DNA of 64,000 nt from Aquisalimonas lutea. Its GTDB lineage: Bacteria > Pseudomonadota > Gammaproteobacteria > Nitrococcales > Aquisalimonadaceae. The notes under the pieces were generated by a model. The model was not told the origin of the DNA. It ran no database searches and saw only the letters and a program-made list of their open reading frames with translations. The position numbers were made by a program, and so were the translations under genes. The stretch covers positions 2,943-66,942 of the forward strand of contig NZ_JAUFPK010000004.1 in NCBI RefSeq assembly GCF_030409225.1, written 5' to 3'. The first letter of the stretch is position 1, and every line of letters starts with the position of its first letter. This document shows positions 1 to 17,779 of this stretch, piece after piece.

Positions 1-87
1 CACCGCTTTCGCTACTTCTTGTTCCACGACCTCCCGCAGCTTGCCCTGCGAGATCGTGCGTTTATTGGGGTGAATACGCTTGTGCAT
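1..87 (-). CDS. N-terminal fragment of a gene running off the left edge
   Basis: An ATG at 85-87 on the minus strand opens a frame that stays open to the window edge (29 codons), beginning MHKRIHPNKRTIS and rich in Lys/Arg. A good ribosome site (GGAGG, about 5 nt upstream) precedes the ATG. It lies 24 bp after the stop of the upstream minus-strand gene, so the two are probably co-transcribed. If that gene is a small terminase, this one would be expected to be the large terminase or another packaging gene, but too little protein is visible to say. No function assigned. Confidence 0.5.
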   Translation of the reverse strand, partial: MHKRIHPNKRTISQGKLREVVEQEVAKAV

Positions 88-111
88 CACGCCCTCCACC
101 GTTAAGCCGAC

Positions 112-516
112 TCACTGCCGGCGCTTGCCCAAATACGACTCCAGATCCATCGGCTCATTCACGCCGCGCTCCTGGCGCTCAAGCCCGAGCGTGCGGCTCA
201 GGCGGTTGAAGGTATTCAGCGCGGGCAGGTAGAAGCCCGATACCTCGCCGTGCTCCAGATACCGCGTCATTTCGTCGTTAATGAGAACCTGCAAGCCGGC
301 CATCTGCTCGGCCATCATCTTCTGCATCTCGCTCAAGTACCGCTCCCCACCGAGATCGGCCATGATCTGCTCCTTCATCTCCATCACGCGCCGCCCGACC
401 CGCGTACGCCGATCAAGCGGGCGCACGGCGACATTCGCCGAGACCGCCGAAAGATTGCCCTTCGGGTGGGTAATCTCGACTCTGTTCCGCTCTGTATCTT
501 CCCGTCGTTGCACCAT
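112..516 (-). CDS. Phage-type small protein, possibly a terminase small subunit
   Basis: This 134-residue basic, helical protein starts at ATG 516. The frame continues upstream to a TTG at 594, but that extension has no ribosome site and looks non-coding. The middle is heptad-like (MEMKEQIMADLG, then MQKMMAEQMAGLQ), and the C-terminal part reads LNTFNRLSRTLGLERQ and ends DLESYLGKRRQ. A C-terminal LxxLLRxLGL-like helix followed by a short basic tail is common in phage small terminase subunits, which is the only basis for that suggestion. It sits just before the truncated gene at the left edge. It could equally be an unrelated DNA-binding accessory protein of the element. Confidence 0.45.
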   Translation of the reverse strand: MVQRREDTERNRVEITHPKGNLSAVSANVAVRPLDRRTRVGRRVMEMKEQIMADLGGERYLSEMQKMMAEQMAGLQVLINDEMTRYLEHGEVSGFYLPALNTFNRLSRTLGLERQERGVNEPMDLESYLGKRRQ

Positions 517-599
517 AATTGGCTCGATAATTCCCGCGCTATTTCCAATCTCACTCAGTCTGCCACCGCAGCCATTTCGCGCAAGAGCAAGCAATTACT

Positions 600-1302
600 T
601 ATGCGTTTGAAGAGAAACCGAAATACGCTCTCTTCGAAGAAGAAGTGAATAGAACTTGAAGAGTGTCAGGTGAAAGGTGGGGGCGCGATTTATTCAAATC
701 GATACATTCTGGTTTGAATAGAATCGGCGTGAATACGTGCGCACGAACATTCACAACAAAACGTTTATAACGTTTTGAATGTTCAACACGACCAGCACGC
801 GGGCATGAAGTCATCGATTTGAATAGAACGTGGCGAACATTCAAACAGGCAAGCATGCCGCCATGCATACCACGACCCTATCCGGGGCATAGTCGACAGC
901 TATCGGTTTCTATTCACTACCTATATGCCTGGGTATTGAATGTTCACCTGGTGCATGGTCACGAAGAATATGAACCACCACCACCGCCGAAGGCTCCATT
1001 CAAAATGCGCGCGAAGACGCCCCCGTGGTGGGGCAGACCATGCACGAATACCTGACTAGGGTCCTGACTTGAGATCCGCGCCAGACAAGAACCTGGGCTT
1101 GATCAGGGGGTTAGTGCTACGGGTGTACTAATTGACGATTAGTCGGGCGCGTGTTCACAGCGCGGGTTTGAAGGGGTGGTTTCGGTGGGGTTGGTGCCTT
1201 CGACCTTCAGTCGGGCGCAGAGGCGGCGCGTTCGATCTGTCCCTGACCATATTCGCGCAGTTATTCACGCAACCGGCAGGCAAGAAGCGTGGTCCTCTAT
1301 GC
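600..1302. other. Long non-coding, repeat-rich stretch of the mobile element
   Basis: No frame here has a ribosome site or protein-like composition on either strand. The stretch is AT-richer than the chromosome and holds four copies of the octamer GAACATTC or its complement (744-751, 777-784, 834-841, 938-945), several TTGAATAGAA words, and the nested inverted repeat annotated separately. It probably contains the promoter of the minus-strand gene starting at 516 plus an operator, partition or replication site. Confidence 0.5.
744..784. repeat. Nested inverted repeat, candidate operator or origin/partition site
   Basis: A 9-bp perfect inverted repeat (CAAAACGTT, spacer TAT, AACGTTTTG; 757-777) is flanked by GAACATTC on the left (744-751) and GAATGTTC on the right (777-784). 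The flanks therefore form a second, outer inverted pair. A short GTGCGCAC palindrome abuts it at 737-744. Further GAACATTC copies lie at 834 and 938. The symmetry suggests a dimeric protein binding cooperatively; the protein is unknown. Confidence 0.6.
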
Positions 1303-2190
1303 TTAGACAGTCTTACTGTTGGTTTGATTTAACAACCCAGCATTCATCGCTGAACCGAGGTAGGCAAGTTTGTCATTCTCCTTGGCGGGCTCGAATGTTT
1401 TGGTGGCTCTAGCCGTAACCGTGATTGTTGAAGCCAAGCCCCCTACTACAGTTGCTATCGGTATGGTGTACGCAGTTGCGAAGAAGTCTATTGCGCTCCC
1501 GTACGCCACCCCTTTCGTTATATTCATACCATTCACATTGAGTTCGACAGCGAGATCGAACTTTCGATTCCCTGGGAAACGCTCATTGCTTACCCTGTCT
1601 AGATCACGAATACGCTGAGAAAGATCCGATACGACTTTCCTGGTTTCCAGGTCCGTGTCCGGTGCTTGTAGGGCTTCTTTGTAAAGCGCATCTAGCTCTT
1701 GATGTAAGGCACCCAGCTCGTCCTTGCGCCTCTCCTTGAACTCCAGCACCTCGTTAATGGGGACGTTGGCGTCTGGGACTGGGAGAACGTTCGCCAAGTC
1801 GACACGTATGGTTTCCTGTTCTTTTATGACCTTATCGAGCAGAGCACATTCGCTAGAGAACTGATGAATCACCCAATCTTTCGTCTTGTCTTTGAGCAGC
1901 TCTTCCGCAACCTCTGTTTGGCACGATAGCACAGCCTCCGTTAACTGGTCTCCTCCGTACGCCCCGATGAAGTTAACGCGCGGGCGCTCAACTGCACCTG
2001 ACTGAATTAATTCGTCTTCTTCCGGTATACCAAAGCCAATAAGATTATTGTTCGGTATAACTACCCGATCCCAGTACATGACGTAGTACCGCAGTTCCTG
2101 CGACGAAATGCCGCGCTCCATTTTCAGACCCTGGGGTATCGGGTGAATAATTGCCGGCGGTGCTATGACCCCTCGTTCCACAGTCCTCAC
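1303..2190 (-). CDS. DUF6236-like protein of unknown function
   Basis: This 295-residue protein starts at GTG 2190. Its N-terminus (RGVIAPPAIIHP, then SSQELRYYVMYWDRVVIPNNNLIGF) matches the pattern I associate with DUF6236 proteins: a start motif of type GIV.PP followed by a conserved YWD.v..P.N.li segment. The central part (about residues 90-215) is charged and predicted coiled coil. A hydrophobic stretch at about 235-260 (AIDFFATAYTIPIATVVGGLAST) could be a membrane or buried helix. No biochemical role is established for the family to my knowledge. It is the downstream gene of a minus-strand run with three small membrane proteins (2272-3312). The family call is from remembered sequence pattern and needs a profile search. 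Confidence 0.55.
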   Translation of the reverse strand: MRTVERGVIAPPAIIHPIPQGLKMERGISSQELRYYVMYWDRVVIPNNNLIGFGIPEEDELIQSGAVERPRVNFIGAYGGDQLTEAVLSCQTEVAEELLKDKTKDWVIHQFSSECALLDKVIKEQETIRVDLANVLPVPDANVPINEVLEFKERRKDELGALHQELDALYKEALQAPDTDLETRKVVSDLSQRIRDLDRVSNERFPGNRKFDLAVELNVNGMNITKGVAYGSAIDFFATAYTIPIATVVGGLASTITVTARATKTFEPAKENDKLAYLGSAMNAGLLNQTNSKTV

Positions 2191-2271
2191 CTTTATGTCT
2201 GCGCGAATATTCGTGTTCTACTTCTGCGAGAACACCTTCTTATCCGCATTATTCATGTGCATGCCAGACAG

Positions 2272-2754
2272 TCAAACCCCGCCGGCAGATAGCTCTACCA
2301 AGTGCATGCCAATGTATTCGCCGACGAGCAGCACGAAGCCAATCGCCATACCGGCGTAGTTGATACGACGTGACCACAGCTCACGTCCTGCGCGTCGGTT
2401 CATACGCCTGAACTGCACTCCCTTCTGGGCAAGCGCTTGCCCTTTGTTTTCGTCTGTCTCGTGCCGGTCCTTCAATATATTCGTGATGCGCTTATGCGAC
2501 CCCATCGCCATAAGTGCCGTGATCTCGTTCCACTGCGCCACGACACCCGCAATAGCCGCCACCGACAGCACCGCGACGGCAACCACGTGCACCACGACTC
2601 CCACGCCTGCGCTTGCTACAGGTCCGCTTTGAATGATGGCGAACAGGGCGACGATGGGCAGCCCCATGAAGTACCAATTCCAGCGCGTGTACGCTTCAAT
2701 TGCGCGCTTCTGCAACTCCTCCGCAACCCGCTTGTCTTCGTCCGTTGTTGTCAT
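2272..2754 (-). CDS. Small three-helix membrane protein, hypothetical
   Basis: This 160-residue protein starts at ATG 2754, which overlaps the stop of the upstream gene as ATGA, so translation is probably coupled. The frame extends further upstream, but that part is the shadow of the neighbouring gene. It has an acidic N-terminus (MTTTDEDKRVAEELQKRA), two hydrophobic segments at about residues 27-43 and 50-73, a soluble basic loop of about 55 residues (MGSHKRITNILKDRHETDEN and following) and a third membrane segment at about 131-150. I recognise no family. The coupling suggests that it and the 90-residue membrane protein form one complex. Confidence 0.6.
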   Translation of the reverse strand: MTTTDEDKRVAEELQKRAIEAYTRWNWYFMGLPIVALFAIIQSGPVASAGVGVVVHVVAVAVLSVAAIAGVVAQWNEITALMAMGSHKRITNILKDRHETDENKGQALAQKGVQFRRMNRRAGRELWSRRINYAGMAIGFVLLVGEYIGMHLVELSAGGV

Positions 2755-3023
2755 GATTCGCCCAGCAACGCCGACAGCCCCACGACAGCCAGCCCGCCGA
2801 CCCAAACCGCAACGAGGCTCCAGTCCCCTTCTGTGAAGCCCACGTAGATCGGCATGACGACGACCGTGAAGGGGGCGACGATCAGCGCCGCGATCCACTG
2901 CCACAGCGGCAGTTCCCACACGTGAAAGTACCAAAACACCGAGTACGCCATGTACGCGCCTGCGGTGAGATAGAGCGCTTGGGCGGTGAACTTCGTTGCC
3001 GTCTTGACAGTGCCCGTATCCAT
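2751..3023 (-). CDS. Small membrane protein, three predicted helices, hypothetical
   Basis: This 90-residue protein has membrane segments at about residues 14-34, 37-60 and 67-87. The start was set at ATG 3023 (MDTGTVKTATKF) because a strong AGGGGGG ribosome site lies just upstream. Upstream in-frame codons, back to 3071, add only basic low-complexity sequence. Its stop overlaps the next start (ATGA). No family recognised. It belongs to the minus-strand membrane-protein run of the mobile element. Confidence 0.6.
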   Translation of the reverse strand: MDTGTVKTATKFTAQALYLTAGAYMAYSVFWYFHVWELPLWQWIAALIVAPFTVVVMPIYVGFTEGDWSLVAVWVGGLAVVGLSALLGES

Positions 3024-3099
3024 CGACCCGCCCCCCTTCATGCGTCGTGCCCGACCGCTTGAAGGTAGCAAGCAGGGGCGGGGTTGAATAGTGCTGAGG

Positions 3100-3312
3100 C
3101 TAGTTCCGCGTGTGCTGCTCTATTCGCTGCCGCACGGCATCTAGACACAGCAGGCACGAGAGTGCGCCGCAGAGCAACCCGTCGGTGCCGAGAAGCATCA
3201 GCATGAATAGAAGACAAATGTCGTCGGGCACGTTTTTAAGAGCAGTACATAACTTATTGGTTAGACGGGTATTTAATCGAATCTTTAGCTTTAGTGTGAA
3301 TAGAATATACAT
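3100..3312 (-). CDS. Cys-containing single-pass membrane microprotein
   Basis: This 70-residue protein starts at ATG 3312. The ribosome site is excellent (AGGAGA, 6-nt spacing) and follows an AT-rich promoter-like stretch. The N-terminus is basic (LKLKIRLNTRLTNK); a hydrophobic segment at about 33-57 contains four Cys (CLLFMLMLLGTDGLLCGA, then LSCLLCLD), and the tail is polar. The basic end probably stays cytoplasmic. It is AT-rich relative to its neighbours, and no family is recognised. It is the first gene of the minus-strand membrane cassette. Confidence 0.5.
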   Translation of the reverse strand: MYILFTLKLKIRLNTRLTNKLCTALKNVPDDICLLFMLMLLGTDGLLCGALSCLLCLDAVRQRIEQHTRN

Positions 3313-3539
3313 TGATTTCTCCTATATTTTCTATTTATTTATTCATTTAGTTTCTTCTTTTTATTCACTTCTATTTAGTCTTCTCGCACCTTTGCCTAAA
3401 CCTTCACGGTTCAACGACAGACGGCGCTCTATTCACTATTTATTCGCGCTTTCAGGTCGGCTCGTCCGTGCCATCTTTAAGGCGCTGGGCTTTGCCCGTG
3501 GGGCGACTTGATTTGAAGGTCTGAGGGAGGGTGTGCGTG
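3313..3539. promoter_or_regulatory. AT-rich divergent promoter region
   Basis: The 227 bp between divergent genes at 3312 (minus) and 3540 (plus) contain a run of almost pure A/T with pyrimidine-rich tracts (about 3313-3400) and TATTCA/TTATTC words. Both flanking genes have clear ribosome sites pointing away from it. It is the most AT-rich stretch of the window and probably holds both promoters; exact -10/-35 boxes are not called. Confidence 0.4.
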
Positions 3540-3971
3540 ATGGATAAATTCGACTTCTTTCTGGGCGCTGGCGCGGTGGTAGGGCTGATGGTGCTGATAC
3601 CCATTGCCAGTGACTTCGACGCCGGGCGCGACTTCGGCGACCCCACGCCGTACAACGTGGTGCAGAACCGCGCCGAGCGCTGCCGCGATGGCGACTTGCA
3701 GTGCCTGGCTGAAGCCTATGTAGAGCGGGCTGAAGAGGCGTGTGACGGGCGCATTGCCGGGGCGGCGCAGTACGAGCACAGGTGGTCGGCGGCGCCGCTC
3801 TTCACGCGCTATGTTTGGCGTGATCAAGACGCGGGGGTGATCGCGTACGGGGGTGACGCCGTCGAGTTCAAAAACGGCTTCGGCTCCTGGCAGCGCTACC
3901 AGTACGTCTGTCTATTCGATACGCGTGCGCAGAGCGTCCGTGACGTGTCGGTGTCGCCGGGGCGTGGGTAG
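3540..3971 (+). CDS. Hypothetical membrane-anchored or exported small protein
   Basis: This 143-residue protein starts at ATG 3540, 9 nt after GGAGG; in-frame GTG codons at 3531 and 3537 are worse placed. Residues 7-24 form a hydrophobic anchor (FFLGAGAVVGLMVLIPIA) followed by a soluble domain. The soluble part has four Cys (CRDGDLQC, EEACDGR, YVCLF) that could form disulfides outside the cytoplasm, and aromatic-rich strands near the end (FKNGFGSWQRYQYVCLF). No family recognised. It stands alone on the plus strand opposite the membrane cassette. Confidence 0.55.
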   Translation: MDKFDFFLGAGAVVGLMVLIPIASDFDAGRDFGDPTPYNVVQNRAERCRDGDLQCLAEAYVERAEEACDGRIAGAAQYEHRWSAAPLFTRYVWRDQDAGVIAYGGDAVEFKNGFGSWQRYQYVCLFDTRAQSVRDVSVSPGRG

Positions 3972-3977
3972 CAAGCC

Positions 3978-4259
3978 CTAGCCATCCACGACGCTCGCCC
4001 GGGCGTCCTCGGTCGCGAAGATTTGCTGGTACAGGGCGTGGGTGGGCGCGCGGTCGGTGGGGTCGCGGTTGCAGCGGTTTGAATTGACGAAGTGCATGAA
4101 GTCCTTGCACGCGAGCTGTTCATCCGCGCACCGCTGCCAGAGCGGGCAATCGCGGCACGGCTCGCGGCTTGCCTGCATGCGGCTGATGAGGCGGTTATGG
4201 CTGACGTCTGCGGGCGCCTTTGCGGGCTCATCAGGCGCCAGTGATCCACCCACCTCCAT
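3978..4259 (-). CDS. Cys-rich small hypothetical protein
   Basis: This 93-residue protein starts at ATG 4259, whose first base is shared with the stop of the 43-residue gene upstream (TGATG), indicating coupled translation. A GTG lies one codon earlier. Residues about 33-53 hold four Cys with spacing C-x2-C-x5-C-x6-C (CRDCPLWQRCADEQLACKD), resembling a small metal-binding knuckle, and a fifth Cys follows in NSNRCNRD. No family recognised. A metal-binding DNA or RNA adaptor role is conceivable, but only the Cys pattern supports it. Confidence 0.55.
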   Translation of the reverse strand: MEVGGSLAPDEPAKAPADVSHNRLISRMQASREPCRDCPLWQRCADEQLACKDFMHFVNSNRCNRDPTDRAPTHALYQQIFATEDARASVVDG

Positions 4260-4390
4260 CACCGGCGGCGATCCGCCTTGCGCGCCTCGCTCTCGTTGGC
4301 GTAGGTCCGTCCATCCTTAGCCAAGCGTACGGCGTCGTAGGGGTGGCGGTTTTGAATATTCCGGCGCTCACATTCACGGCAATTTTTCAT
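4259..4390 (-). CDS. 43-residue CxxC microprotein
   Basis: This frame runs from ATG 4388-4390 to the TGA at 4259-4261. The protein begins MKNCRECERRNIQNRHPYD and ends in a Lys/Arg-rich tail (KADRRR). An AAGG ribosome site lies upstream with suitable spacing, and its stop overlaps the next start (TGATG). The CREC pair resembles half a zinc knuckle. The overlap with another Cys-rich gene suggests two partner proteins made in equal amounts. No family recognised. Confidence 0.5.
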   Translation of the reverse strand: MKNCRECERRNIQNRHPYDAVRLAKDGRTYANESEARKADRRR

Positions 4391-4551
4391 AAAGCAAACC
4401 TTCACGATTCCGGTTTGCCTCGGCATTCTGACACCCTGCCGTATTCGATCAATGAATTCTTGCGTTTAGCGTTTTTGAAAATTGCCGAAAAAGGCAACCG
4501 TGCGATAATTGTTGCGTCGTCGAAAATTGAAGGTGAATAGGCATTTCCGCC

Positions 4552-5109
4552 GTGATCGATTTCTTCACGCGACAGCGAGTGAATACCAGCCGTGAAGGGT
4601 TGAGCAGAGAAGAGCAATTCGCCGCGCAGGGGTGGTACTGGCTCCGTGGCGACGGCGTTGTTGACCCGCCCGAGGGCATCTTCACGCTAGAGCGCGGGGG
4701 CGTGGCGCTCGCCGAGGTGTATCCGCGCAGCGATGATCAGTGGGGTGTGCGGTGCTGGTGCCCGCAGCGCTGCGAGTTCCGCGACGTTGACGCCGCCTTC
4801 ACCCACCCCTACCAAGCCATCGCCGCGCTGCAAGACGCCGAGCGCGACGGGTGGTGGTCGCCCGAGGCGGCGCAGGGTCCGTCACTCGATGACCTGGGCT
4901 GGTACGAGAATGCGCGCGGTAATTTCGTCTGGCGCACGGGCAAGATGACCTACACCGTCTACCACGCCGATGGGCTGTGGCGCATCGCCGAGCACCGTAT
5001 CGGTGGCGGCAAGCCCCACTACCAGCCCACCGCCTACCACGATCCGGTGCGGGCGATGCAAGCCGTGGTGCTCCAGGTCGATGCCGAGCGCGAGGTGGGT
5101 ACGAAGTGA
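4552..5109 (+). CDS. Hypothetical protein with two copies of an unnamed module shared with the gene at 5306
   Basis: This 185-residue protein starts at GTG 4552 (MIDFFTRQRV). It contains the same architecture as the protein at 5306-5656: an N-terminal [VM]I[DE]xFTR motif, then a module with GW, (G)xFTLER, a CxxC-containing strand and an AxxA helix. Here the module occurs twice: about residues 27-102 (GWYWLRG, FTLERGG, CWCPQRC, YQAIAALQDAERDGWW) and about 115-182 (GWYENARGNFVW, MTYTVYHA, RAMQAVVLQ). The second copy has lost the Cys. No known family is recognised. An internal duplication after gene duplication is inferred from these matches. Confidence 0.6.
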   Translation: MIDFFTRQRVNTSREGLSREEQFAAQGWYWLRGDGVVDPPEGIFTLERGGVALAEVYPRSDDQWGVRCWCPQRCEFRDVDAAFTHPYQAIAALQDAERDGWWSPEAAQGPSLDDLGWYENARGNFVWRTGKMTYTVYHADGLWRIAEHRIGGGKPHYQPTAYHDPVRAMQAVVLQVDAEREVGTK

Positions 5110-5305
5110 GCGCCAATTTGCGGCTTTCTCGCGCGTCGAAGTGCCGCAACCTGTAGGCATGGTTATCCGCGCCCTTGATCGGGCGAGAATCGGCTTCGTT
5201 GAACCGCGTAGGCGCGTTGCAAAGCCCCCCGCGACCCTCGCCCCCGTGGGGGCAGCCGGTCCGGGGTGGCGGGTGCGGGGAGTCTCCGGGCGGATGAGGT
5301 TGCGT

Positions 5306-5656
5306 ATGGGCGAGGTGATCGAATTGTTCACACGTAAGGTCCATGGCGGGGCACTGCGCAAGCAGCACAGCAAGGCGCGGCAGCGCAACGAGTGGTTGTG
5401 GAGCGCGGGCTGGGAGCGGGCAGGTGAGGGCAAGTTCACGCTCGAACGGGACGGCTACGTGTTCACCATCCACCCCATGCTTGAGCGGGGACGCATGGCG
5501 CACCGCGTCACTTATCGCTGCCCGGAGTGCGGCGAGCTGCACCGGCCGCGAGGCCGGTGGGACAGTGGTGGGGCGGCCATGCAGGCCGTAACCGACGCCT
5601 TGGCGCGGGGGCGCTGGCGCTGCCTGCGAGGACCGCAGGCGCGCTCACGCCCCTGA
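5306..5656 (+). CDS. Hypothetical protein, single-module paralogue of the gene at 4552
   Basis: This 116-residue protein starts at ATG 5306, preceded by GAGG with 6-nt spacing; the frame is open further upstream without a ribosome site. It begins MGEVIELFTRKV, matching MIDFFTRQRV of the upstream paralogue. It then shows GWERAGEGKFTLERDGYVF, a CPECGE metal-knuckle-like motif and an AMQAVTDALARGRW helix. The CxxC and the FTLER strand are shared with the first module at 4552. Function unknown. It is convergent with the initiator-like gene, whose stop is only 4 bp away. Confidence 0.6.
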   Translation: MGEVIELFTRKVHGGALRKQHSKARQRNEWLWSAGWERAGEGKFTLERDGYVFTIHPMLERGRMAHRVTYRCPECGELHRPRGRWDSGGAAMQAVTDALARGRWRCLRGPQARSRP

Positions 5657-5660
5657 ACCA

Positions 5661-7034
5661 CTAGTCGCGCCCGGGAGTGTTGCCTTCGGCGGCGTGACGG
5701 ACCTGCACGGTACCTTCTCGCTGCTCTCGGCGCTGCCGGACGCGGTCGCCCAAGCGTTGCAGCCACTCGCGACGCTGCTGCGCCTCCGTGGAGTCGTCGG
5801 TCTCCGTGCTCGTCTGCCGCTGCATGCTGGCGCGCGCCTGCGCCTGCTCAGCCTCCGTGACCACGGCACACTCCGGAGCAGGCACGAAGGAGCGGTCCGG
5901 GTCGTCAGGGTCGAAAGCGGTGGTGGCGGGGTATTCACCAACCACGCCCGCGCGCCGCATCGCCGCAAGCGCAGCAAGCCCGGCGGTGCTGTAGCCCTTG
6001 CCCACCGTGCGCCAGTCTGACGCGCCGACGCGCCAGCGGCGCCGCAACACCCAGTCGCCGGCCCGGCGGTCGGGGAGCACGGCGTACCGGCACGTAGTGG
6101 TTTCAAGCACGATGGTGTCGAAGCGCCGCCCAAGCCGCCAGCCCAAGACCCCCAGCGGGCCGGGGGCAGCGGCCCCCGCGTCGGGGTTGCGCGGAGGTAC
6201 CGGTAGGTCGCAAGCACCGGTGGCGGTGGTCCGCGAATGACAAGCAGCAGCCTGCGCGCTGCATGCGAAGTGCATGGGGGGTTGCTTGCCCCCTTCAGGG
6301 TGGTCACTGGTAGCGGGCTCAGCGGAGCCCGCTACGGGACCGCCCGAACCAGCACCAGAGCCGGAGCCGAAGGCGGAGGCGGCGGTGCTGGTTCTAGTGG
6401 TCGTGCTGCTGTTCTCTTCACAAGCATGGCTGCTTGTCTTCTCTTCAATTTCTTGGCCTGGCTCAAGTGCCGACGCCGCCCCCGAAGTCGAGCGGCAGCT
6501 CGCGGAGGGGACGGCGGCGTCGGCGCGAGCGCCGCCGCCGTAAATACCCGTAAGGGTATTTGGGGGCTCATTTTGGCATTCTGTGCGCTGTTTTGAGCCC
6601 CTAGAATTGCCTGAATGAGCCCCTAGGTCAGCCCGGTCTAAGCCCCTATTTGAATGTTCGTGAGCCCCTTTTGAGCCCCTAGGATTCTCTTCAATTGCGT
6701 ACTGCTTGATGTACTCCAGGCGCCGCACCGTGGCTCGGCGTTGCCCACCCTTCACGCGGCCACCTTCAGACACCACGACGACGAAGCCCAGCCGGTGCAA
6801 TTTGCTCAGGGCGCGCTTGGTGGTGGCGCGAGAGACGCCTGCCTTCTCGGCCAGGGTGGCAACGGCGGGGTGCGCTTCCCCGCTGTTATCCAAGACGAAC
6901 GATTTGAATGCCTGGAGCACATTCAATTCCGATTTCGTCAACGTTGAAAAGTCGGGGTGATTCTCGATGCTTTCCATCCGCTGACGCGGCGTCGGCTGCT
7001 TGCCTTCATCATGCGGGTTCGCGATACTGCTCAT
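5661..7034 (-). CDS. Winged-helix replication-initiator-like protein of the mobile element
   Basis: This 457-residue protein starts at ATG 7034. Residues about 25-110 form a helix-turn-helix/winged-helix domain (LTKSELNVLQAFKSFVLD, HPAVATLAEKAGVSRATT, ALSKLHRLGFVVVV), like the N-terminal domain of lambdoid O-type and RepA-type initiators and of some regulators. Residues about 115-290 are low-complexity, Ser/Gly/Ala-rich, and the coding DNA there carries an iteron-like array (6594-6682). The C-terminal third (about 290-457) is a separate globular-looking region (LGWRLGRRFDTIVLETTTCRYAV) ending in an Arg/Gln-rich helix. It lies in the same strand orientation as the integrase module. An alternative is a HTH transcription regulator. 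The initiator reading rests on the embedded repeats plus the N-terminal domain. Confidence 0.55.
   Translation of the reverse strand: MSSIANPHDEGKQPTPRQRMESIENHPDFSTLTKSELNVLQAFKSFVLDNSGEAHPAVATLAEKAGVSRATTKRALSKLHRLGFVVVVSEGGRVKGGQRRATVRRLEYIKQYAIEENPRGSKGAHEHSNRGLDRADLGAHSGNSRGSKQRTECQNEPPNTLTGIYGGGARADAAVPSASCRSTSGAASALEPGQEIEEKTSSHACEENSSTTTRTSTAASAFGSGSGAGSGGPVAGSAEPATSDHPEGGKQPPMHFACSAQAAACHSRTTATGACDLPVPPRNPDAGAAAPGPLGVLGWRLGRRFDTIVLETTTCRYAVLPDRRAGDWVLRRRWRVGASDWRTVGKGYSTAGLAALAAMRRAGVVGEYPATTAFDPDDPDRSFVPAPECAVVTEAEQAQARASMQRQTSTETDDSTEAQQRREWLQRLGDRVRQRREQREGTVQVRHAAEGNTPGRD
6542..6561. repeat. Perfect hairpin beside the iteron array
   Basis: AAATACCC (6542-6549) and GGGTATTT (6554-6561) form an 8-bp perfect stem with loop GTAA, directly followed by an inverted copy of the repeat core (GGGGCTCA, 6563-6570). 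It lies inside the initiator-like gene, 33 bp from the direct repeats, where a structural or nicking element of an origin could sit. Confidence 0.5.
6594..6682. repeat. Iteron-like direct repeats TGAGCCCCTAG inside the initiator-like gene
   Basis: Copies of TGAGCCCCTAG or one- to two-base variants start at 6594, 6616, 6639, 6661 and 6672. Spacing is 22, 23, 22 and 11 bp, so all lie on nearly the same face of the helix. A sixth, inverted copy lies at 6561-6571, and a GAATGTTC octamer shared with the 744-945 region occurs at 6652-6659. The repeats encode no regular amino-acid repeat because spacing is not a multiple of three, so DNA-level selection is likely. Confidence 0.65.
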
Positions 7035-7683
7035 GCCAATTGTACCTCGTCTTAGGCGCTGTGCTTTCGGCCTCGGGCGCTGTTGCAGTTGGTACGGTGC
7101 CGGCCTCCGGGCTGGTGAAGTTCAAGTACACTTTGTTACGTAGAAGGTAGTCATAGAAGCTCCTGACTTGTTGGCCTCAATACCTCCTATTGCGCAAAGC
7201 GCTTGAGCAACCGTTTGTACACCTCAATCTACTGTCTCCTGAACCCTCATTGCCCGGATCGGCTTTGGGGGTTCATCTTTTTTATTCTGCGATGTTCGCC
7301 CTTCGATGTTAAGCAAATTCTTGCGCGCATTCTGTCTTGCATTCGCGGCTCCAATTCGCTTGAATGACAGTACCATTACTCATGGTTACGTGACCTGGCT
7401 GCGCGGCTGCCTCTCCGCTTTAAGCCAGGTCCCCGCGCCCCGCTGGATCCTTCGCTGGCGGGGCGCACTTTTGTTCGTGCGTTCTGCTCGTGCGTCGCGC
7501 GTACTGCGGCTAGTGCGTACTGCTGTAAATGCGTTGTGCTGTCCGCGCGTTCCGCTGTTCATGCGTTCTGCTTGTCGTGCGCTTGAGCGCCGCGTGATCA
7601 GTCCATTGCGCCGGGAACAAGAGGGCGTTCAGTCAGCCCATCACCACGGCAAGATGATCGTCCTTGACTACGCCATCACCACG
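7035..7683. other. Non-coding stretch upstream of the initiator-like gene
   Basis: Frames here lack ribosome sites and typical protein composition; the long plus-strand frame starting at 7306 is largely Arg/Ala/Leu-rich and overlaps a better gene on the other strand. The region should hold the promoter of the initiator-like gene. It also contains a short tandem repeat block at 7498-7593 and a TTGCGCAAAGCGC imperfect palindrome near 7190. Confidence 0.4.
7498..7593. repeat. Degenerate 16-bp tandem repeat
   Basis: Units starting at 7498, 7514, 7530, 7546, 7562 and 7578 follow each other at exactly 16 bp, with approximate consensus TGCGTNCTGCTGTNNN (for example TGCGTACTGCTGTAAA and TGCGTTGTGCTGTCCG). 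A diverged related copy lies at 7478. The block is non-coding and lies about 460 bp upstream of the initiator-like gene. It could be a partition or regulatory array or an expanded microsatellite. Confidence 0.5.
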
Positions 7684-8145
7684 TTAGTGGGTGGTGTTGC
7701 TGCGGTGGCCAGCCGTACGGCCTCCAAGGCCATCATCTTCGACAACCAGGCTGTCCGGTCCGACAACCAGGCTCTCCTGGCACGGGACGAGCTGTGCCTT
7801 ACCCGGTCGGCTGCGTGCTTCGTAGATACTCTCCATGACCTCCGGAGGCGCACCCTCCTCGATGAGCAGAACTTCGAGCAGAGCGTCAACCTCCTGCGAC
7901 GTGGTGGTGTGGTCGTACACAAGCAACGCATTGGCTTCCACGAGGTCGACGAGGTCGACGGGCCGCATTCCGAGTCTGTGCGGGCGCCGTTGCCAGTCGC
8001 CTCCCTGTTCCGTCATCGGCTGCATGACAAACACAGGCTCGTTGTCACGGAACGCGTACTCTATGTGGTACGCCCCTGCTGAGATCCTCAAGGGGTCGTT
8101 GCCGCCTTGTGGAGTTTCCATTTCATAAAGTAGGAAACCGTTCAC
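7684..8145 (-). CDS. Hypothetical protein of the mobile element
   Basis: This 153-residue acidic protein starts at GTG 8145 (VNGFLLYEMETPQGG). The GAGGAG ribosome site with 7-nt spacing decides this start over the longer open frame. The N-terminal half is strand-rich (ISAGAYHIEYAFRDNEPVFVMQPM) and the middle is a very acidic helix (EVDALLEVLLIEEGAPPEVMESIYEA). No family recognised. It stands between the integrase operon and the initiator-like gene, all on the minus strand. Confidence 0.55.
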   Translation of the reverse strand: MNGFLLYEMETPQGGNDPLRISAGAYHIEYAFRDNEPVFVMQPMTEQGGDWQRRPHRLGMRPVDLVDLVEANALLVYDHTTTSQEVDALLEVLLIEEGAPPEVMESIYEARSRPGKAQLVPCQESLVVGPDSLVVEDDGLGGRTAGHRSNTTH

Positions 8146-8299
8146 GGTTATCTCCTCATTACATTTTCCAAAAAGACGGCGGCCTGGGGGGCGGTCGTGG
8201 GACCGGTCAGAGCCGCCAGCGAATGAGCGGCCCACTTTTGGCCACTCACTTATGTGGACTGGGGTCGCCCAGGAGGAGTTCCGGAGCCCGCAAAATTTT

Positions 8300-8572
8300 T
8301 CAGGCCGTCCCGCCTGGCGCCATGCGCGCGGCGTGTCGCTGCTCCAGGGCGCGCATCTGGATCAGGTCGATGGTGTGCTGCGCGGCGGCGGCAGCCTCGG
8401 GCTCTGGCAGGCAGAATTGCGCTCTGAACATGTCGGCCACTGCCGCCCCGTGCGAGTCGTGGGCGACGGTGCTGATGTCGATGCCCGCCGCTTGCATGCG
8501 CGCGGTGACCGCCTCGCTCATCAGCTCGGTCATCTCCCGGATGTCTTCGTCGATCACGGCTTGATTAGTCAT
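8300..8572 (-). CDS. Small hypothetical protein in the integrase operon
   Basis: This 90-residue helical protein starts at ATG 8572, with AGAGGTG 6 nt upstream, and overlaps the 3' end of the preceding gene by 8 bp. It begins MTNQAVIDEDIREMTELM and is mostly amphipathic helix with one Cys. It is the last gene of a four-gene overlapping run (integrase, AlpA-like, 81-residue, this gene). No family recognised; its position suggests a recombination or maintenance accessory. Confidence 0.55.
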   Translation of the reverse strand: MTNQAVIDEDIREMTELMSEAVTARMQAAGIDISTVAHDSHGAAVADMFRAQFCLPEPEAAAAAQHTIDLIQMRALEQRHAARMAPGGTA

Positions 8573-8810
8573 GGTGCACCTCTTTCGTCTCCAGTAGGGC
8601 AGGGCGGTCCACCTCCAGGCAGGCCACCGCCTGCGCCTGTAGCTCCTCGGCCTTGCGCTGCACCTTCTCGCTGCCCGAGCAGGCGATCAGCGCCCCGGCG
8701 TAGCCCGCGCACTCGGCGGCATGTAGGGCGCGCCGGGCGCCCGGCTTCTGCACGCTCAGCCGCGAGGCCATGCGGCCCAGGGCGGCGAGGTGCTGCACGT
8801 AGTTGCTCAT
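8565..8810 (-). CDS. Small hypothetical protein in the integrase operon
   Basis: This 81-residue protein starts at ATG 8810, overlapping the stop of the AlpA-like gene (ATGA), and ends 8 bp inside the next gene. It is Ala-rich and helical with three Cys (HAAECAGYAGALIACSG, AVACLEVD). No family recognised. The two overlaps imply coupled translation with both neighbours. Confidence 0.55.
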   Translation of the reverse strand: MSNYVQHLAALGRMASRLSVQKPGARRALHAAECAGYAGALIACSGSEKVQRKAEELQAQAVACLEVDRPALLETKEVHHD

Positions 8811-9121
8811 CGGCTGTCTCCGTCGGTATTCGGCGTCAGCGCCATCAGGAAGCGGAGATAGTTGGCCGGCTCGTCACCCCTGGACCTACTGGGGTGGGTG
8901 ATCGGATTGGCCAGCGGCCTGCCGCCACCACGACGAGCAGCCTTGCGCCGCTGTCTCTCCATCCACGCCTCAACGTCGTTGCGGCTGTAGCGGATGTGCC
9001 CCCGCCCGACACGCAGCCAGGCGGGGCCTTGGCCCGCCTTGCGCATCCGCCAGAGCTGGGTGCGGGAGTAGCCGAGCATTTGCGCGGTCTCGCGTACGGT
9101 GAGCAGTCGATCCTCACTCAT
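8807..9121 (-). CDS. AlpA/excisionase-family helix-turn-helix protein
   Basis: This 104-residue protein starts at ATG 9121 (MSEDRLLTVRETAQMLGYS), whose ATGA overlaps the integrase stop. Residues about 5-60 show the AlpA/MerR-like winged-helix pattern: LLTVRETAQMLGYSRTQLWRM, then RVGRGHIRYSRNDVEAWMER. These proteins act as excisionases or activators of integrase expression in prophages and satellites. A basic, Gly-rich tail follows. The longer upstream frame is the shadow of the integrase. Here it would act with the integrase just upstream in the operon. Confidence 0.75.
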   Translation of the reverse strand: MSEDRLLTVRETAQMLGYSRTQLWRMRKAGQGPAWLRVGRGHIRYSRNDVEAWMERQRRKAARRGGGRPLANPITHPSRSRGDEPANYLRFLMALTPNTDGDSR

Positions 9122-10506
9122 GCCTGCTGTACCTCCCGGCGCTGCGCAAGCGCCGTTACGTTCTCGGCCTCGGCAGGCTCGGTGATGCCGCACAGGACCT
9201 TCAGCCGGTCGGTGACGGTCTGCTGTGCTTGGCGCAGGTCGGCGAGGTTGGTGTGGATGTAGTGCACCGCTGTGATGTCGCGCCCGTTAGGGGCATGGCC
9301 CGCTAGCTCCACCACGAGCGCGTACGGCAGATTCAAGCTCGCGGCGGTCGTGATGTACGAGCGCCGGAGGTCATGGAGCGTGGTATGGGGGATGCCCACC
9401 TGCTCGGTGATCTGCTGGAGGGGGACGAGGCCGTCGGCGATGTGCCCGCGCTCGCTCTTCTGTACGGCAGGAAACAGCCAGTGCGTCGACAGCCCCAAGC
9501 GCCGAAGCTCGATGAGGCGGTCGAGGAGGAAGTCGGTGAGCGGCACGATGCGCTCTTTCTTGCCTTTAGTGCGCTCGGCGCGGAGGCGGATGCTCCGGGC
9601 GGGCACGCCGCCGTGCTCTTGGTCGGTGAGATTGACGTCAGACCACGCCAGCCCGGCGCTCTCGCTGCGGCGCATGCCGGTGAAGAGAACGAGCGTGAGG
9701 TAGTAGCGGAACGCGATGTTGTCGAGTGCCTGGATGGCACCGTAGAGCGGGGCGAACTCCTCGGCACCGAGCACTCGGGTCCGTGGAGGCGGGCTGTACT
9801 TCTGGCCCTTCGGCAACTGTGCCGGGTTTTTGGTCAACCCGCCAAGCTCGCGCTCGATGGCGAAGCCGAGTAGGGCACGGAGCACGGTGATCGCGTACTC
9901 GGCTGCGGCCAGCCCGGTCTTGTCGGAGCCCTGGGGTTGTCCGGTGACCCCCTTGTTCTCGCGCACCGCCCGGATGATGGCGTCGCGCTGGTCGAGAACG
10001 TCGGCTCGGGAGATCGTGTTGATGTTGCGGGTGCGCCAGTTGTCGAAGTACGTGTCGATAGCCCGGCGGTAGCCATCGCGGGTTGTCTCGGCAAGACCGT
10101 GCTTGGTCTTCAGGTAGCGGTCGAGGAGGTCGGCGAGGGTGATCTGGTTGGCCTGCCGCTCGGCTTCAGCCTCCTTCGGGTCGATGCCCTGCGCCATTTG
10201 ATCGAGCAGAGATCGTGCCCGGTCGCGAGCGTCGGCCAGGGCCAGCACGCCGACGCGGCCAAGGGTGATGGTGCGCTGGAGCTGATTGCCGTTGCGGTTG
10301 ACCCGACCGCGCACGTCACGCTGGACGATGAACGAGGCACTTGCCCCGCGCCCGCTCACCCGTACGCCGAACCCGGGAAGCTTCGTATCCCAGACGTGCC
10401 GGTCTCTGCCGCTGGGGTCGGGCATCTTGAGCCGATCCAGGAACGTCTGCGTGATGGATACCTTACTGCCTGAAGTGGAAAGACCTTTCTGTCTGTTTTT
10501 AGACAT
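9118..10506 (-). CDS. Tyrosine recombinase (phage-type integrase)
   Basis: This 462-residue protein starts at ATG 10506 (MSKNRQKGLST), with AGAGG 8 nt upstream; the longer frame to 10932 enters chromosomal sequence. An N-terminal arm-binding domain of DUF4102 type is visible (VWDTKLPGFGVRVSGRG, ITLGRVGVLALADAR). Then comes a SAM-like core-binding domain (about 140-215) and the catalytic domain. The catalytic set is present: Arg in GMRRSE, His and Arg in HDLRRSY, His in AGHAPN and Tyr in HYIH. It is the rightmost gene of the element, reading inward, so an attachment site should lie between 10506 and 10811. It likely catalyses integration and excision. Confidence 0.9.
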   Translation of the reverse strand: MSKNRQKGLSTSGSKVSITQTFLDRLKMPDPSGRDRHVWDTKLPGFGVRVSGRGASASFIVQRDVRGRVNRNGNQLQRTITLGRVGVLALADARDRARSLLDQMAQGIDPKEAEAERQANQITLADLLDRYLKTKHGLAETTRDGYRRAIDTYFDNWRTRNINTISRADVLDQRDAIIRAVRENKGVTGQPQGSDKTGLAAAEYAITVLRALLGFAIERELGGLTKNPAQLPKGQKYSPPPRTRVLGAEEFAPLYGAIQALDNIAFRYYLTLVLFTGMRRSESAGLAWSDVNLTDQEHGGVPARSIRLRAERTKGKKERIVPLTDFLLDRLIELRRLGLSTHWLFPAVQKSERGHIADGLVPLQQITEQVGIPHTTLHDLRRSYITTAASLNLPYALVVELAGHAPNGRDITAVHYIHTNLADLRQAQQTVTDRLKVLCGITEPAEAENVTALAQRREVQQA

Positions 10507-10562
10507 GATTTGTGCCTCTCGCTGCCGCATAGCCCGTCTCAGGGATGTACCAGGGATTGACA

Positions 10563-10582
10563 CGTTGCAGGGCGTTGCAACG
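10563..10582. promoter_or_regulatory. Inverted repeat upstream of the integrase, candidate operator or att core
   Basis: CGTTGCA (10563-10569) and TGCAACG (10576-10582) form a perfect 7-bp inverted repeat with a 6-bp spacer, 57 bp upstream of the integrase start. It overlaps a TTGACAC (10557-10563) that could be a -35 element. It could be an operator for the integrase promoter or part of the recombination site. Confidence 0.45.
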
Positions 10583-10810
10583 TTAAGGCCATTAAAGCAG
10601 GGAGTGTCACAAACCGCAACGGAATTTATTGGAGAATCAGGTAGTTGGAGTGTTCTTGGCGTGCTCTGCAACGGCTCGCTACAGGGAGCATATAGATGTA
10701 TGATAAAAACATCGAAACGTACAGGGAGTAGGCCGGCTGGCCACGGGGCCGGATCTGGCTTTACTTGCCGAAAGGTTTGTACCATGCAGGCAGCAGGACG
10801 GCGGGAATGA

Positions 10811-11116
10811 ATGGCCATGGTCACGGGGAATGCGGACGGCGCCGGCGCGCGATCGGACGGCCGCCAGTATACGGCGGTGCTGGACCTGCGGGTCCACGAC
10901 CGGCTGGAGCGCCTGCCACTGCTGGAGCTCACGCTCTCGAGCCTGACCGTGGGCGAGGACTTGCTGCTGATGACGGCGGCGGCACCGGAGCGGCTGCAGG
11001 CGCATGTTGCGCGCCACTACGGCGAGCGCGTCCAGTGGCAGCCGCTCCAGTGCGGACCGCCCCTGTGGCGGGCCCGGCTGGTCCGGGTGGCTTCCGGCGA
11101 CGAGGCGGAGCAATGA
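10811..11116 (+). CDS. DUF2249-type small protein
   Basis: This 101-residue protein starts at ATG 10811; an alternative ATG lies two codons later. It has the DUF2249 layout: LDLRVHDRLERLPLLELTLSSLTVGEDLLLMTAAAPERL, then a segment ending RVQWQPLQCGPPLWRARLVRV. DUF2249 proteins are TusA/SirA-like in fold and often accompany nitric-oxide or denitrification genes, but their reaction is not established. It lies 25 bp upstream of the NsrR-type regulator, probably co-transcribed. It is the first chromosomal gene right of the element. Confidence 0.65.
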   Translation: MAMVTGNADGAGARSDGRQYTAVLDLRVHDRLERLPLLELTLSSLTVGEDLLLMTAAAPERLQAHVARHYGERVQWQPLQCGPPLWRARLVRVASGDEAEQ

Positions 11117-11141
11117 GCGGCGGCAGCGGGGGACCCGGTTC

Positions 11142-11576
11142 ATGGAACTGACCTTTCACACGGACTACGGCTTGCGCGTTCTGATGTTCGCCGGGGCCCA
11201 CCGGGATCGACGGGTGACCATGCGCGAGGTGGCGATGGCCTACGCCATCTCCCTGGAGCATCTGCGCAAGGTGGTCCACAGGCTGGCGCAGAGCGGGTTT
11301 CTCGCTACCACCAAGGGTCGGGCAGGCGGGCTGCGGCTGGCGCGACCCGCGGAGGAGATCCGCGTGGGGGATGTGGTGCTGGCCATGGAGGATTCCCTGG
11401 CCATTGTCGACTGCAGCCGGCAACCCTGCCCGCTATGCGGCGGATGCTCGCTCAAGGGGGTTTTCGAGAGCGCCCGGCAGGCCTTCGTCGATCGCCTCAA
11501 CGAGTTCACCCTGGCCGATCTGCTTCACAACGCGGATACGTTCGGCGAGCTGCAGCGGCTGGGCCAGCCGGCCTGA
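11142..11576 (+). CDS. nsrR: Rrf2-family regulator, NsrR-type
   Basis: This 144-residue protein starts at ATG 11142 (MELTFHTDYGLRVLM). It is a full-length Rrf2 protein: winged helix at about 1-75 with MREVAMAYAISLEHLRKVVHRL and the wing TTKGRAGGLRLARP, then the dimer helix. The iron-sulfur segment has Cys in the pattern C-x4-C-x2-C-x2-C (VDCSRQPCPLCGGCSLKG), in the place where NsrR binds its cluster. NsrR senses nitric oxide through that cluster and represses NO-detoxification genes. The DUF2249 gene upstream fits that role. An IscR identity is less likely given the Cys spacing and the C-terminus (LADLLHNADTFGELQRL). Confidence 0.75.
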   Translation: MELTFHTDYGLRVLMFAGAHRDRRVTMREVAMAYAISLEHLRKVVHRLAQSGFLATTKGRAGGLRLARPAEEIRVGDVVLAMEDSLAIVDCSRQPCPLCGGCSLKGVFESARQAFVDRLNEFTLADLLHNADTFGELQRLGQPA

Positions 11577-11599
11577 CCGGATCCGTGGCCCGAACCGGC

Positions 11600-11636
11600 G
11601 CTAGTGTCCTGCGAACTCGGGTTACAGGACACTAGC
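11600..11636. terminator. 12-bp hairpin between convergent genes, part of a recurring GTGTCCTG repeat
   Basis: GCTAGTGTCCTG (11600-11611) and CAGGACACTAGC (11625-11636) form a perfect 12-bp stem with a 13-nt loop between nsrR and the convergent exonuclease gene, whose stop codon lies in the right arm. No T-run follows, so terminator function is uncertain. The right arm (GTTACAGGACACTA, 11621-11634) is the exact complement of TAGTGTCCTGTAAC at 33838-33851, so this may be a dispersed extragenic repeat. Confidence 0.5.
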
Positions 11637-13740
11637 CCTGCATCGACGCGTGGACGATGGCCGAGCGCTGGCGGATCTGGGCCGCCATGTTCGACGCCCG
11701 CATGACCTCCCCGAACGTGTCCAGCCCCCGGGCTTCCAGGCGGTCGATGAGCCGTACCAGGAGCTCGGCGGTCGCCAGGGCGTCGCCGAGAGCGGTGTGA
11801 CGGCCGCTGACATGGATGCCGTAGCGATCGCACAGGGCATCCAGGGAGTGGTCCTCTTCATCGCCGTCGAGCATGGAGGACAGCAGCAGGGTGTCGAGCA
11901 GCGGGTTGTCGAACTCCACGCCGCTTTCCTCCTGGCGCAGGCTGATGAACTTCATGTCGAACGCGGCGTTGTGGGCCACCATGACGGCGTCGCCGACGAA
12001 CTTGCGGAACTGGGGCAGCACCACCTGGATACCCGGCTTGTCGCGGACCTGCTCGTCGGTGATGCCGTGGAACCGGATGGAGTCCGCGGGGATGGGGCGC
12101 CCGGGGTTGACCAGGCGATCGAAGGACTCGCCCGTAAGCACCCGGTGCTTGACCACGCGCACGCCGGCGATGGCGATGATCTCGTCGCCGCCCATGGGGT
12201 CGAGACCGGTCATCTCGCAGTCGAACACCACGAACGACAGATCCCGCAGGGGCTGCGAAGCGAGCTCCTCGTCGCCGGCGTGCTTGCGCATGAGGCCAAA
12301 GTCGTAGAACTCGGGGCGCGCCGGCAGGTGTTCCGGTTCCGGCAGGAACTGGGGCCGGGAGGGAGGCGGCAGGGGCAGGCGCACCACCGCCTGCCCCTGG
12401 CGGCGGCCGCGTTGGCTCCAGGGCTCGCAGTCGTGGCGATCGAGAACGTCGCGGGTGCGCTGGCCGGCAGCCTCGTCGTCGCAGGGCGTGGCCAGCCACG
12501 CCTCCAGGGCGTCTGCCGGCAGGGGGTCGCCGGACCAGCGGATATCGACGTAGACGGCATGATCGGCGAGCAGGGATTCGACGTCGAATTCCGCCTCTCC
12601 TGTCTCCTGGTGGAGCCGGCGGAACAGGCATTCCAGCATCTGCACCAGCGACAGGCTGTCTCCGTGCAGCCACAGCGGCATGCCCACCAGGTTGACGCGC
12701 AGGCCCGGTTCGTCCCGCAGGCGCTCCTGCAGGCAGCTGACCAGGTCGCCGACGTGCAGGTCGGCCATGGGCCAGCGCCCGAGCAGCTGGCCCTGGAGGT
12801 CCTCGCCGAGCTCCTGGATGCGTCGGCTCAGGGTCTGGCTCTCCCGCAGGATCACGGCGTCGAACGCGCGGCGTTCCTCGGGCGCCATGTCGGGATAGTG
12901 GGTAACGGTTTCGGCGGCCGCGCGCAGGTTGCCGACCACGCCCCGCAGCTCCCGGGTCAGCGCCAGCCGGATGGCGTCGCCGCGCGTGAGCAGGGAGACA
13001 TCCCGGGAGATGTCCGTGAGGGTGATCAGGTATCCGGTGACGGCGTCGTTGCCGTCGAGGATCAGGGCCACCCGCGTATGCAGCATCCGGTGAGCGTCGG
13101 CGCTGCGGCACACGAACGGGGCCGTCAGCTCCGGCGCCGTGGTGATGCCCTGGTCGTGCTGGCGCTCCAGGCGCTCCAGGGTATGCTCCACCGGCGCCCG
13201 GGAGACCACGTCGAACAGGGATCGTCCCAGGCCGATGGCCTCGGGCGTGCCGAGAATCGAGACGACGGCGTTGTTGTAGAGGAGAATCTGGTGCTTGCGG
13301 TTGCACACCACGACGCCTTCGCCGAGGCTCTGGAGAATGACCTCGAGCCAGGTCTTCTGCTCCTCCGCCTGCTCGGTGGCCTGCTCCGTCGCTTCCCGGA
13401 TTTCCCGGCGGGAGGTTCTTAGCGCCTCCGCCAGCTCGCCGACGGCGTCCGGCAGGCTGCCCAGGGCGTGACGGCGCGGCAGGGGCAGGCCCTGATCGCA
13501 CGAGCGCGACTCCCGCAGCGCCCGGATGCCGCGCACCAGCTTGCGGGCGGGGCGCATGATGAACACGTCCACCAGCAGGCCGGCGGCCAGAATCATGGCT
13601 GCTGCCACGACGCCCCCCAGGGCGGGGCCGAGGGCGCTCCCCTCGGTCCCACTGGCAAGGTGCACCACGCCGGATACCGCCAGTCCGGTCACGGCGGCCA
13701 GGGCGAGCGTGGTGTAGAGCACCTGCTGGCGGGGTTGCAT
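11632..13740 (-). CDS. Membrane PAS-domain protein fused to a DnaQ-like 3'-5' exonuclease
   Basis: This 702-residue protein has two N-terminal membrane segments (about 8-28 and 40-60). A HAMP-like linker, a coiled coil (REATEQATEQAEEQ) and a PAS domain (about 130-245) follow. Next comes a region shaped like a degenerate histidine kinase (about 255-460), without a phospho-acceptor His box or intact ATP-binding boxes. The C-terminal 200 residues are a DEDDh exonuclease: FVVFDCEMTGLD (Exo I), AHNAAFDMKF (Exo II) and HTALGDALATAELL (Exo III). All catalytic acids appear present. The arrangement recalls exonuclease genes found beside DUF294 and ActP-type symporter genes in Pseudomonas; here those genes follow at 14287-20038. 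The role of a sensor-linked nuclease is unknown. Proofreading subunit (dnaQ) is unlikely because of the membrane-sensor half. Confidence 0.8.
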   Translation of the reverse strand: MQPRQQVLYTTLALAAVTGLAVSGVVHLASGTEGSALGPALGGVVAAAMILAAGLLVDVFIMRPARKLVRGIRALRESRSCDQGLPLPRRHALGSLPDAVGELAEALRTSRREIREATEQATEQAEEQKTWLEVILQSLGEGVVVCNRKHQILLYNNAVVSILGTPEAIGLGRSLFDVVSRAPVEHTLERLERQHDQGITTAPELTAPFVCRSADAHRMLHTRVALILDGNDAVTGYLITLTDISRDVSLLTRGDAIRLALTRELRGVVGNLRAAAETVTHYPDMAPEERRAFDAVILRESQTLSRRIQELGEDLQGQLLGRWPMADLHVGDLVSCLQERLRDEPGLRVNLVGMPLWLHGDSLSLVQMLECLFRRLHQETGEAEFDVESLLADHAVYVDIRWSGDPLPADALEAWLATPCDDEAAGQRTRDVLDRHDCEPWSQRGRRQGQAVVRLPLPPPSRPQFLPEPEHLPARPEFYDFGLMRKHAGDEELASQPLRDLSFVVFDCEMTGLDPMGGDEIIAIAGVRVVKHRVLTGESFDRLVNPGRPIPADSIRFHGITDEQVRDKPGIQVVLPQFRKFVGDAVMVAHNAAFDMKFISLRQEESGVEFDNPLLDTLLLSSMLDGDEEDHSLDALCDRYGIHVSGRHTALGDALATAELLVRLIDRLEARGLDTFGEVMRASNMAAQIRQRSAIVHASMQG

Positions 13741-15747: not shown

Positions 15748-15881
15748 CACTGGACATCCCTCGCCAGGCGGCGCTGGAAGGCCGGAATCGCTGCCGCTGC
15801 CCGGGACGCTGCCCGGGCTACTTCGTCGGTCGAGCGACACGCTTCGATGATCGGTACCAGTCCGGGCATGTTTGCACCCAC

Positions 15882-17767: not shown

Positions 17768-17779
17768 TTTTTGTGCCCC

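Follow-up and report, generated by a model that had tools for sequence, protein, structure and literature searches.

An iteron array inside the initiator-like gene of a phage-satellite-like element in Aquisalimonas lutea, a probable part of its replication origin

What does an array of short direct repeats do inside an initiator-like gene, and could it belong to the origin from which the surrounding element replicates? The question is raised by a gene encoding a protein of 457 aa, here called rep, at 5661-7034 on the minus strand of the window, the whole 64-kb stretch of DNA that was analysed. Three exact copies of TGAGCCCCTAG start at 6594, 6616 and 6672 on the plus strand (6594-6604, 6616-6626 and 6672-6682), and two further copies on the same strand carry two mismatches each, TAAGCCCCTAT at 6639-6649 and TGAGCCCCTTT at 6661-6671, so that the start-to-start spacing of the five copies is 22, 23, 22 and 11 bp. 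An inverted iteron-like copy with two mismatches lies at 6560-6570 on the minus strand as part of a 16-nt inverted repeat (6563-6578 and 6608-6623, 88% complementary), and a perfect 8-bp hairpin with a 4-nt loop, AAATACCC-GTAA-GGGTATTT, occupies 6542-6561. In all of these points, i.e. the number of copies, their starts and spacing, and the inverted copy and hairpin beside them, an earlier sequence-only reading of this stretch was borne out. As a single strand, 6530-6700 folds better than its own shuffles (z -3.79; 0/200), an excess that is due chiefly to the hairpin and the inverted pair of iterons and that may be relevant.

An array this dense, five copies and 51 matching bases in a span of 100 bp, was reached neither by synonymous-codon shuffles of the gene (0/300 and 0/3000) nor by dinucleotide shuffles of 6401-6900 (0/1000). 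By their count, the repeats are unremarkable: TGAGCCCCTAG with up to two mismatches occurs 22 times in the 64-kb window against 17.1 expected, a number reached by 18 of 100 shuffles, and the 4.2-Mb genome holds three exact copies, as many as it holds of a backward-read control pattern. However, all three exact copies of the genome fall inside 89 bp, and it is this clustering that is unusual.

The repeats could in principle be a matter of the protein or of the DNA. Read along the strand of the gene, the copies switch between two codon frames, in which the same DNA gives RGS-type and GAH-type peptides, and peptide repetition is therefore no explanation for them. That the repeats are maintained as DNA and not as peptide, which the sequence-only reading had proposed, is supported by the two frames and by shuffles that never reproduce the array. 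The coding signal of the gene varies as well. A codon model was trained on 29 long ORFs from the window. In the frame of the gene, it scores about 6681-6920 and 5721-6140 as positive or near zero, whereas 6141-6680 is negative whichever of the six frames is read, with the minimum at 6561-6680, although the contrast is not absolute, given that the first ~60 codons of rep (-0.16, -0.17) and 6441-6560 (-0.16) are slightly negative too. GC contents at codon positions 1/2/3 are 0.61/0.45/0.75 for aa 1-114, 0.57/0.53/0.43 for aa 115-165, the region of the array, 0.64/0.73/0.68 for aa 166-285 and 0.76/0.60/0.84 for aa 286-457. From this pattern, the ORF is read as a coding winged-helix part, a low-coding stretch of ~540 bp that contains the array and would be the proposed origin (6141-6680), and a coding-like C-terminal part of no known family (aa 286-457; 5661-6179, minus strand), for which there may be a separate internal start.

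A gene known to carry its origin inside itself, O of phage lambda, was run as a control through the same script. Its annotated iterons, which fall in three frames, were recovered at gene nt 349-433 (aa 117-145), and 0/300 shuffles reached them; the array of rep lies at gene nt 353-441 (aa 118-147), a near-identical place, just after the winged-helix match at aa 32-85. The lambdoid-style placement suggested by the sequence-only reading, directly behind the winged-helix domain, therefore holds as sequence anatomy. Lambda O shows no drop in GC at third codon positions (0.46, 0.50, 0.58), so the argument from third-position GC is unsupported by the control. As far as the relevant sections of the lambda literature go (PMC3349717, PMC3985674), rep resembles lambda O/ori in having an N-terminal DNA-binding part directly followed by off-frame intragenic repeats, which are spaced 20, 24 and 23 bp apart in lambda against 22, 23, 22 and 11 bp in rep. 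Unlike those of lambda, the repeats of rep are 11 bp long and not 18, and they have neither a distinct AT-rich stretch nor a recognised P-like helicase loader beside them; rep also differs from O in lacking a match to the Phage_rep_O family and in having a C-terminal part without relatives. The GC content is ~0.5 at the array, compared with 0.65-0.8 across much of the gene, with no distinct AT-rich block, and no distinct AT-rich unwinding element was found adjoining the array. A single weak DnaA-box-like site lies in 4501-8500. No Rfam family matched at its gathering score in 1-20000, and the 64-kb window has no tRNA.

Is the encoded protein an initiator? Its winged-helix domain (6780-6941, minus strand) is called from a Pfam HTH_36 match at aa 32-85 (30.2 bits, cut-off 25), and a low-confidence single-sequence model of aa 1-115 (pLDDT 58.1) has the winged-helix order of helices and strands; a second single-sequence model reached a pLDDT of 55.8. 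The structure search for initiator relatives proposed in the sequence-only reading came back empty-handed, since the fold search with the aa 1-115 model returned nothing below E=0.14. In PHROGs, the best matches of the whole protein are replication initiation families, including the 'O-like' family 391 at 1e-7, and with aa 1-115 the top three of 29 families are all replication initiation (1.9e-8, 1.8e-7 and 1.3e-6), while a control winged-helix regulator at 11004-11576 (n=1) matches no replication initiation family. The winged helix also matches a DnaD-like loader family at 8.2e-6 in PHROGs, and HTH_36 is, according to the part of PMC4936722 that deals with it, a domain in the replication protein of Pseudomonas phage AH14a as well. 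Phage_rep_O, the Pfam family of the phage initiator O, has no match to rep at E<=1, so that rep may act in the manner of O even though it is no demonstrated family member; nor is RepA_N among the matches up to E=1. The initiator-like identity claimed for the protein thus stands on its best phage-profile matches and is weakened by the unmatched Phage_rep_O and by the regulator families that match too.

These regulator matches bring up another function for the array, namely a regulatory site at which a winged-helix repressor or activator binds its own gene, as a roadblock or for copy-number control, with the origin elsewhere. The best Pfam match of rep is a generic HTH, followed by the regulator families IclR, GntR and MarR, and of the eight sequence matches in PDB up to E=1, six are regulators; the absence of a distinct unwinding element adjoining the array would suit such a site as well. 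Against this, the array is 350-440 bp into the gene, the sole promoter-like site in 6500-8300, at 7312-7284, is upstream of rep (0.6 are expected by chance), and the initiator profiles outscore the single regulator profile listed for rep in PHROGs. On balance, we consider a regulatory site rather unlikely.

Relatives that could show how the array evolves are scarce. The full protein has none in phages, plasmids, viral contigs or genome contigs, and across 54 genomes of the order and 369 of the class we found none beyond a 168-aa winged-helix protein of the same genome and one marginal match, the only one in another genome (46 residues, E=1e-3). Among the loci with the iteron pattern in viral contigs (5) and genome contigs (24), 0/29 encode a relative of rep (tblastn, E<=1e-3); the best scorer of the 29 (E 0.006), one of four whose ORFs were listed, owes the pattern to a DEPL/NEPL peptide that is repeated in frame, and its gene is unrelated.

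Which DNA would such an origin replicate? The gene sits in an integrated element, estimated at ~15.7 kb over two contigs (C11 and C13) and one small assembly gap. The sequence-only reading had spoken of an otherwise undescribed element and had missed that it is phage-satellite-like, with a sister in the same genome. Its gene order starts with a tyrosine integrase ORF (9118-10932, minus strand), whose true start is probably downstream of the first ORF codon, and continues on the same strand with an AlpA-like/excisionase HTH protein (8807-9193), two small proteins, one of 81 aa that is common to the sister (8565-8810; 86.5% DNA identity over 8484-8812) and one of 90 aa without a family (8300-8572), a 183-aa protein without a family that occupies the place of the SF3 helicase of the sister (7684-8235), and rep. 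Beyond rep follow a 185-aa protein that is 96% identical in the sister (4552-5109, plus strand), a 146-aa protein also common to it (3531-3971, plus strand), a cargo slot with a DUF6236 protein and two proteins that appear by eye to be membrane-bound (1303-3071, minus strand), a 160-aa protein without a family, common to the sister, beside the capsid gene (112-594, minus strand), a major capsid protein of HK97 type, and a tape measure. Families were called on the element's own proteins, except for capsid and tape measure, which were called on the sister's copies (95% and 97% identical). In the rep element, both genes lie outside the window on C11, and the tape measure runs on at the end of C13, past which the ORFs look chromosomal, one of them, judged by eye, a ferredoxin. 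No att repeat was found for this element. A short N run separates the 160-aa gene from the capsid gene in both elements (L006, about 2899-2942; L008, before the capsid gene). A 153-aa protein (L052:11427-11888) adjoins the tape measure and matches the phage lipoprotein family PHROG 890 at 3.1e-34, and the stretch holding its gene has no alignment to the sister.

The element has no recognised helicase or primase and no recognised helicase loader of its own, and a scan of 10 of its proteins up to E=1 gave no match to a P- or DnaC-type loader. A weak Replicase match of the 146-aa protein (Pfam, E 0.17) was taken for chance. The possibility that the C-terminus of rep contains the domain of the 185-188-aa protein was rejected, as 15 of 500 or more shuffles scored equally high. 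The N-terminal half of this shared 185-aa protein has a lookalike in a 116-aa ORF at 5306-5656, which adjoins the end of rep (0/500 shuffles equal).

The sister provides the closest comparison. It is a complete relative at C1:1154735-1170240, bounded by 55-bp direct repeats that enclose 15.5 kb. The structural genes belong to a 4.2-kb block that is common to both elements at 94% DNA identity, and further shared parts are a second block (87%), the rep leader (88.6%) and small genes (86.5%), while the integrase, the cargo and the replication module differ. In its replication module, the sister carries a P4-type helicase (D5_N; phage primase families) and the 168-aa winged-helix protein, which is 28% identical to rep over 92 residues and stops shortly before the point where rep enters its array. 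Two 23-nt direct repeats, 33 bp apart start to start, begin 22 bp past the stop of this gene. A second pair (32 nt, with the same 33 bp from start to start) directly precedes the gene and extends up to its start codon, making the repeat evidence from the sister less specific, and GC-rich repeat pairs follow further on; all of these pairs are reported by position alone. No copy of the rep-element iteron with up to one mismatch occurs in the sister (15.6 kb). At the cargo slot, which has the same place in both elements, the DUF6236 protein and the two apparently membrane-bound proteins (1303-3071) face an AbiGi-like protein (L008:12701-13681) in the sister, and phage defence is a possible role for the cargo genes of both.

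This comparison bears on whether the array might be a packaging site of pac/cos-like type for a terminase. An element with capsid and tape-measure genes must be packaged somehow; however, the sister has the same structural block at 94% identity and yet lacks any iteron copy with up to one mismatch, so that it is the initiator, and not the structural block, that the repeats accompany. Between elements with the same structural genes, the repeats change as the initiator changes, which speaks for sites of initiator binding and against a packaging site, although this co-variation comes from n=2 elements. We regard packaging as an extremely improbable function of the array.

A stronger competitor lies upstream of rep. 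There, a leader region at 7093-7465 is 88.6% identical in the sister (L008:8997-9367), although the initiators themselves are just 28% identical; it holds a small basic ORF (MVLSFKRIG...), which is cut short in the sister, where an A-run is longer by one A. Between the 183-aa gene and rep, at 7477-7576 on the plus strand, is a second array that is absent from the sequence-only reading, with six GTGCGTTCTGC-like copies in mostly 16-bp units (spacing 20, 16, 16, 16 and 16 bp). With 58 matching bases and 0/1000 shuffles reaching it, this array is of comparable strength to the intragenic one and exceeds it by count, and it adjoins the leader, which has 43-55% GC. It might accordingly be the true origin, with the intragenic array as a second, control or incompatibility set. 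However, the upstream array is ~440 bp upstream of the start codon and not 3' of the winged helix, no copy of it with up to one mismatch is found in the sister, and the two arrays differ in sequence, which means that one protein would need two specificities. We therefore consider it unlikely that the upstream array is the origin.

It could also be asked whether the element is a living one or a relic, i.e. a decayed prophage whose array has no present function. Neither portal PF04860 nor large terminase PF03354, the two families looked for, was found in the whole genome, and the few structural genes and the lack of an att repeat found for the rep element point the same way. Major capsid and tape measure are present in both elements (L008:15088-18887; L006:1-2845), with other head and tail genes unrecognised among the proteins scanned. 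In contrast to what a relic would suggest, the two elements keep their shared genes open and at high identity despite different integration and replication modules, and the sister retains the 55-bp direct repeat at both ends. A relic is thus very improbable. Capsid relatives occur in 33 phage records (best 40.8% identical) and in 2/54 genomes of the order including this one, and the tape measure matches 141 phage records, of which none covers 80% of the query (at most 21% among the 12 matches listed). The SF3 helicase of the sister is found in 293 phage and 19 plasmid records and, at E<=1e-20, in 2/369 genomes of the class, its own included; the winged-helix protein of the sister is found in 4/369 including its own, the other three being short matches (4e-4 to 6e-4). 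Viral contigs contain no relatives of the 183-aa, 188-aa, capsid or SF3 proteins, and the 188-aa protein has no match in phages.

Both elements are read as phage-inducible chromosomal island (PICI)-like satellites that carry capsid and tape-measure genes. According to the sections of PMC6092414 that describe them, Gram-negative PICIs share with the rep element an order of int, AlpA-type regulator and then rep and, going by its estimated length, a size of about 15 kb, have their origin directly 3' of rep, and in some cases possess capsid-morphogenesis genes. The repeat pair of the sister just after the winged-helix stop fits this position of the PICI origin (same source and sections). In the rep element, by contrast, the reading frame continues through the repeats into a further domain. 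The PICI origin, as outlined there, is made of two iteron sets around an AT-rich region; in the rep ORF, one set was found. Unlike a PICI, the rep-bearing element has no recognised primase, and both elements have a major capsid and a tape-measure gene. An att of its own, as in PICIs, may be represented in the sister by the 55-bp direct repeats 15.5 kb apart; for the ~15.7-kb rep element, no att repeat was found. A capsid-protein homologue borne by a satellite has a precedent in Ccm of SaPIbov5, as reported in the part of PMC8569155 concerned. Among the titles and abstract openings listed in the literature searches, no paper dealt with a tape measure encoded by a satellite or with a satellite origin that lies within a gene.

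Other helper-dependent elements offer further parallels. From the portions of PMC7145576 dealing with replication, PLE of Vibrio cholerae is a satellite that has iterons and encodes an initiator of its own that binds DNA, and its RepA, like rep, is predicted to be neither primase nor helicase and has a C-terminal part that matches nothing known; this RepA drives replication only in helper-infected cells. PLE is unlike the rep element in its non-coding origin, its initiator of RepA_N type and its serine recombinase (same portions). SGI1, a helper-dependent island, likewise has an iteron origin directly downstream of its initiator gene (rep-oriV), as the corresponding sections of PMC7433901 have it, and differs in its RepA_C initiator, the location of the origin outside the gene and the conjugative plasmid that acts as helper.

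Taken together, we favour the reading that the ~15.7-kb satellite has in this array the part of its replication origin to which the initiator binds, located inside the gene of that same initiator; this is probable, and the evidence for it is the DNA-level repeats, the initiator profiles and the parallel to lambda O/ori, through which the origin proposed in the sequence-only reading is also supported in part. After excision, the winged helix (aa 32-85) would bind the 11-bp sites, which are mostly two helical turns apart, and the DNA would be wrapped. The C-terminal part, which has no known relatives, may then recruit the replisome. Given that no helicase, primase or loader was recognised in the element, such functions would be supplied by the host or a helper phage, and the element is presumably helper-dependent in this respect. 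The PICI-style position 3' of the winged helix would have become part of the reading frame.

Going one step further, we tentatively suggest that the two elements may represent a new satellite family, although this is a good deal less certain than the function of the array. Its members would have their own major capsid and tape measure but lack a recognised portal, a recognised large terminase and any further recognised tail gene, and they would exchange their replication modules as a whole. One sister would replicate by a P4-type helicase and a short winged-helix initiator with repeats on its 3' side; in the other, the frame of the initiator would have grown through the origin into a new domain, lambda-like and yet independent of lambda, without a helicase of its own. 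If true, this shows a route to a lambda-like intragenic origin, in which a PICI-style 3' origin is absorbed by an open frame, and nature offers a ready comparison in the two sisters of this one genome. A further gain would be a type of satellite that supplies its own capsid and tape measure and that could thereby set head size and tail length on the parts of its helper.
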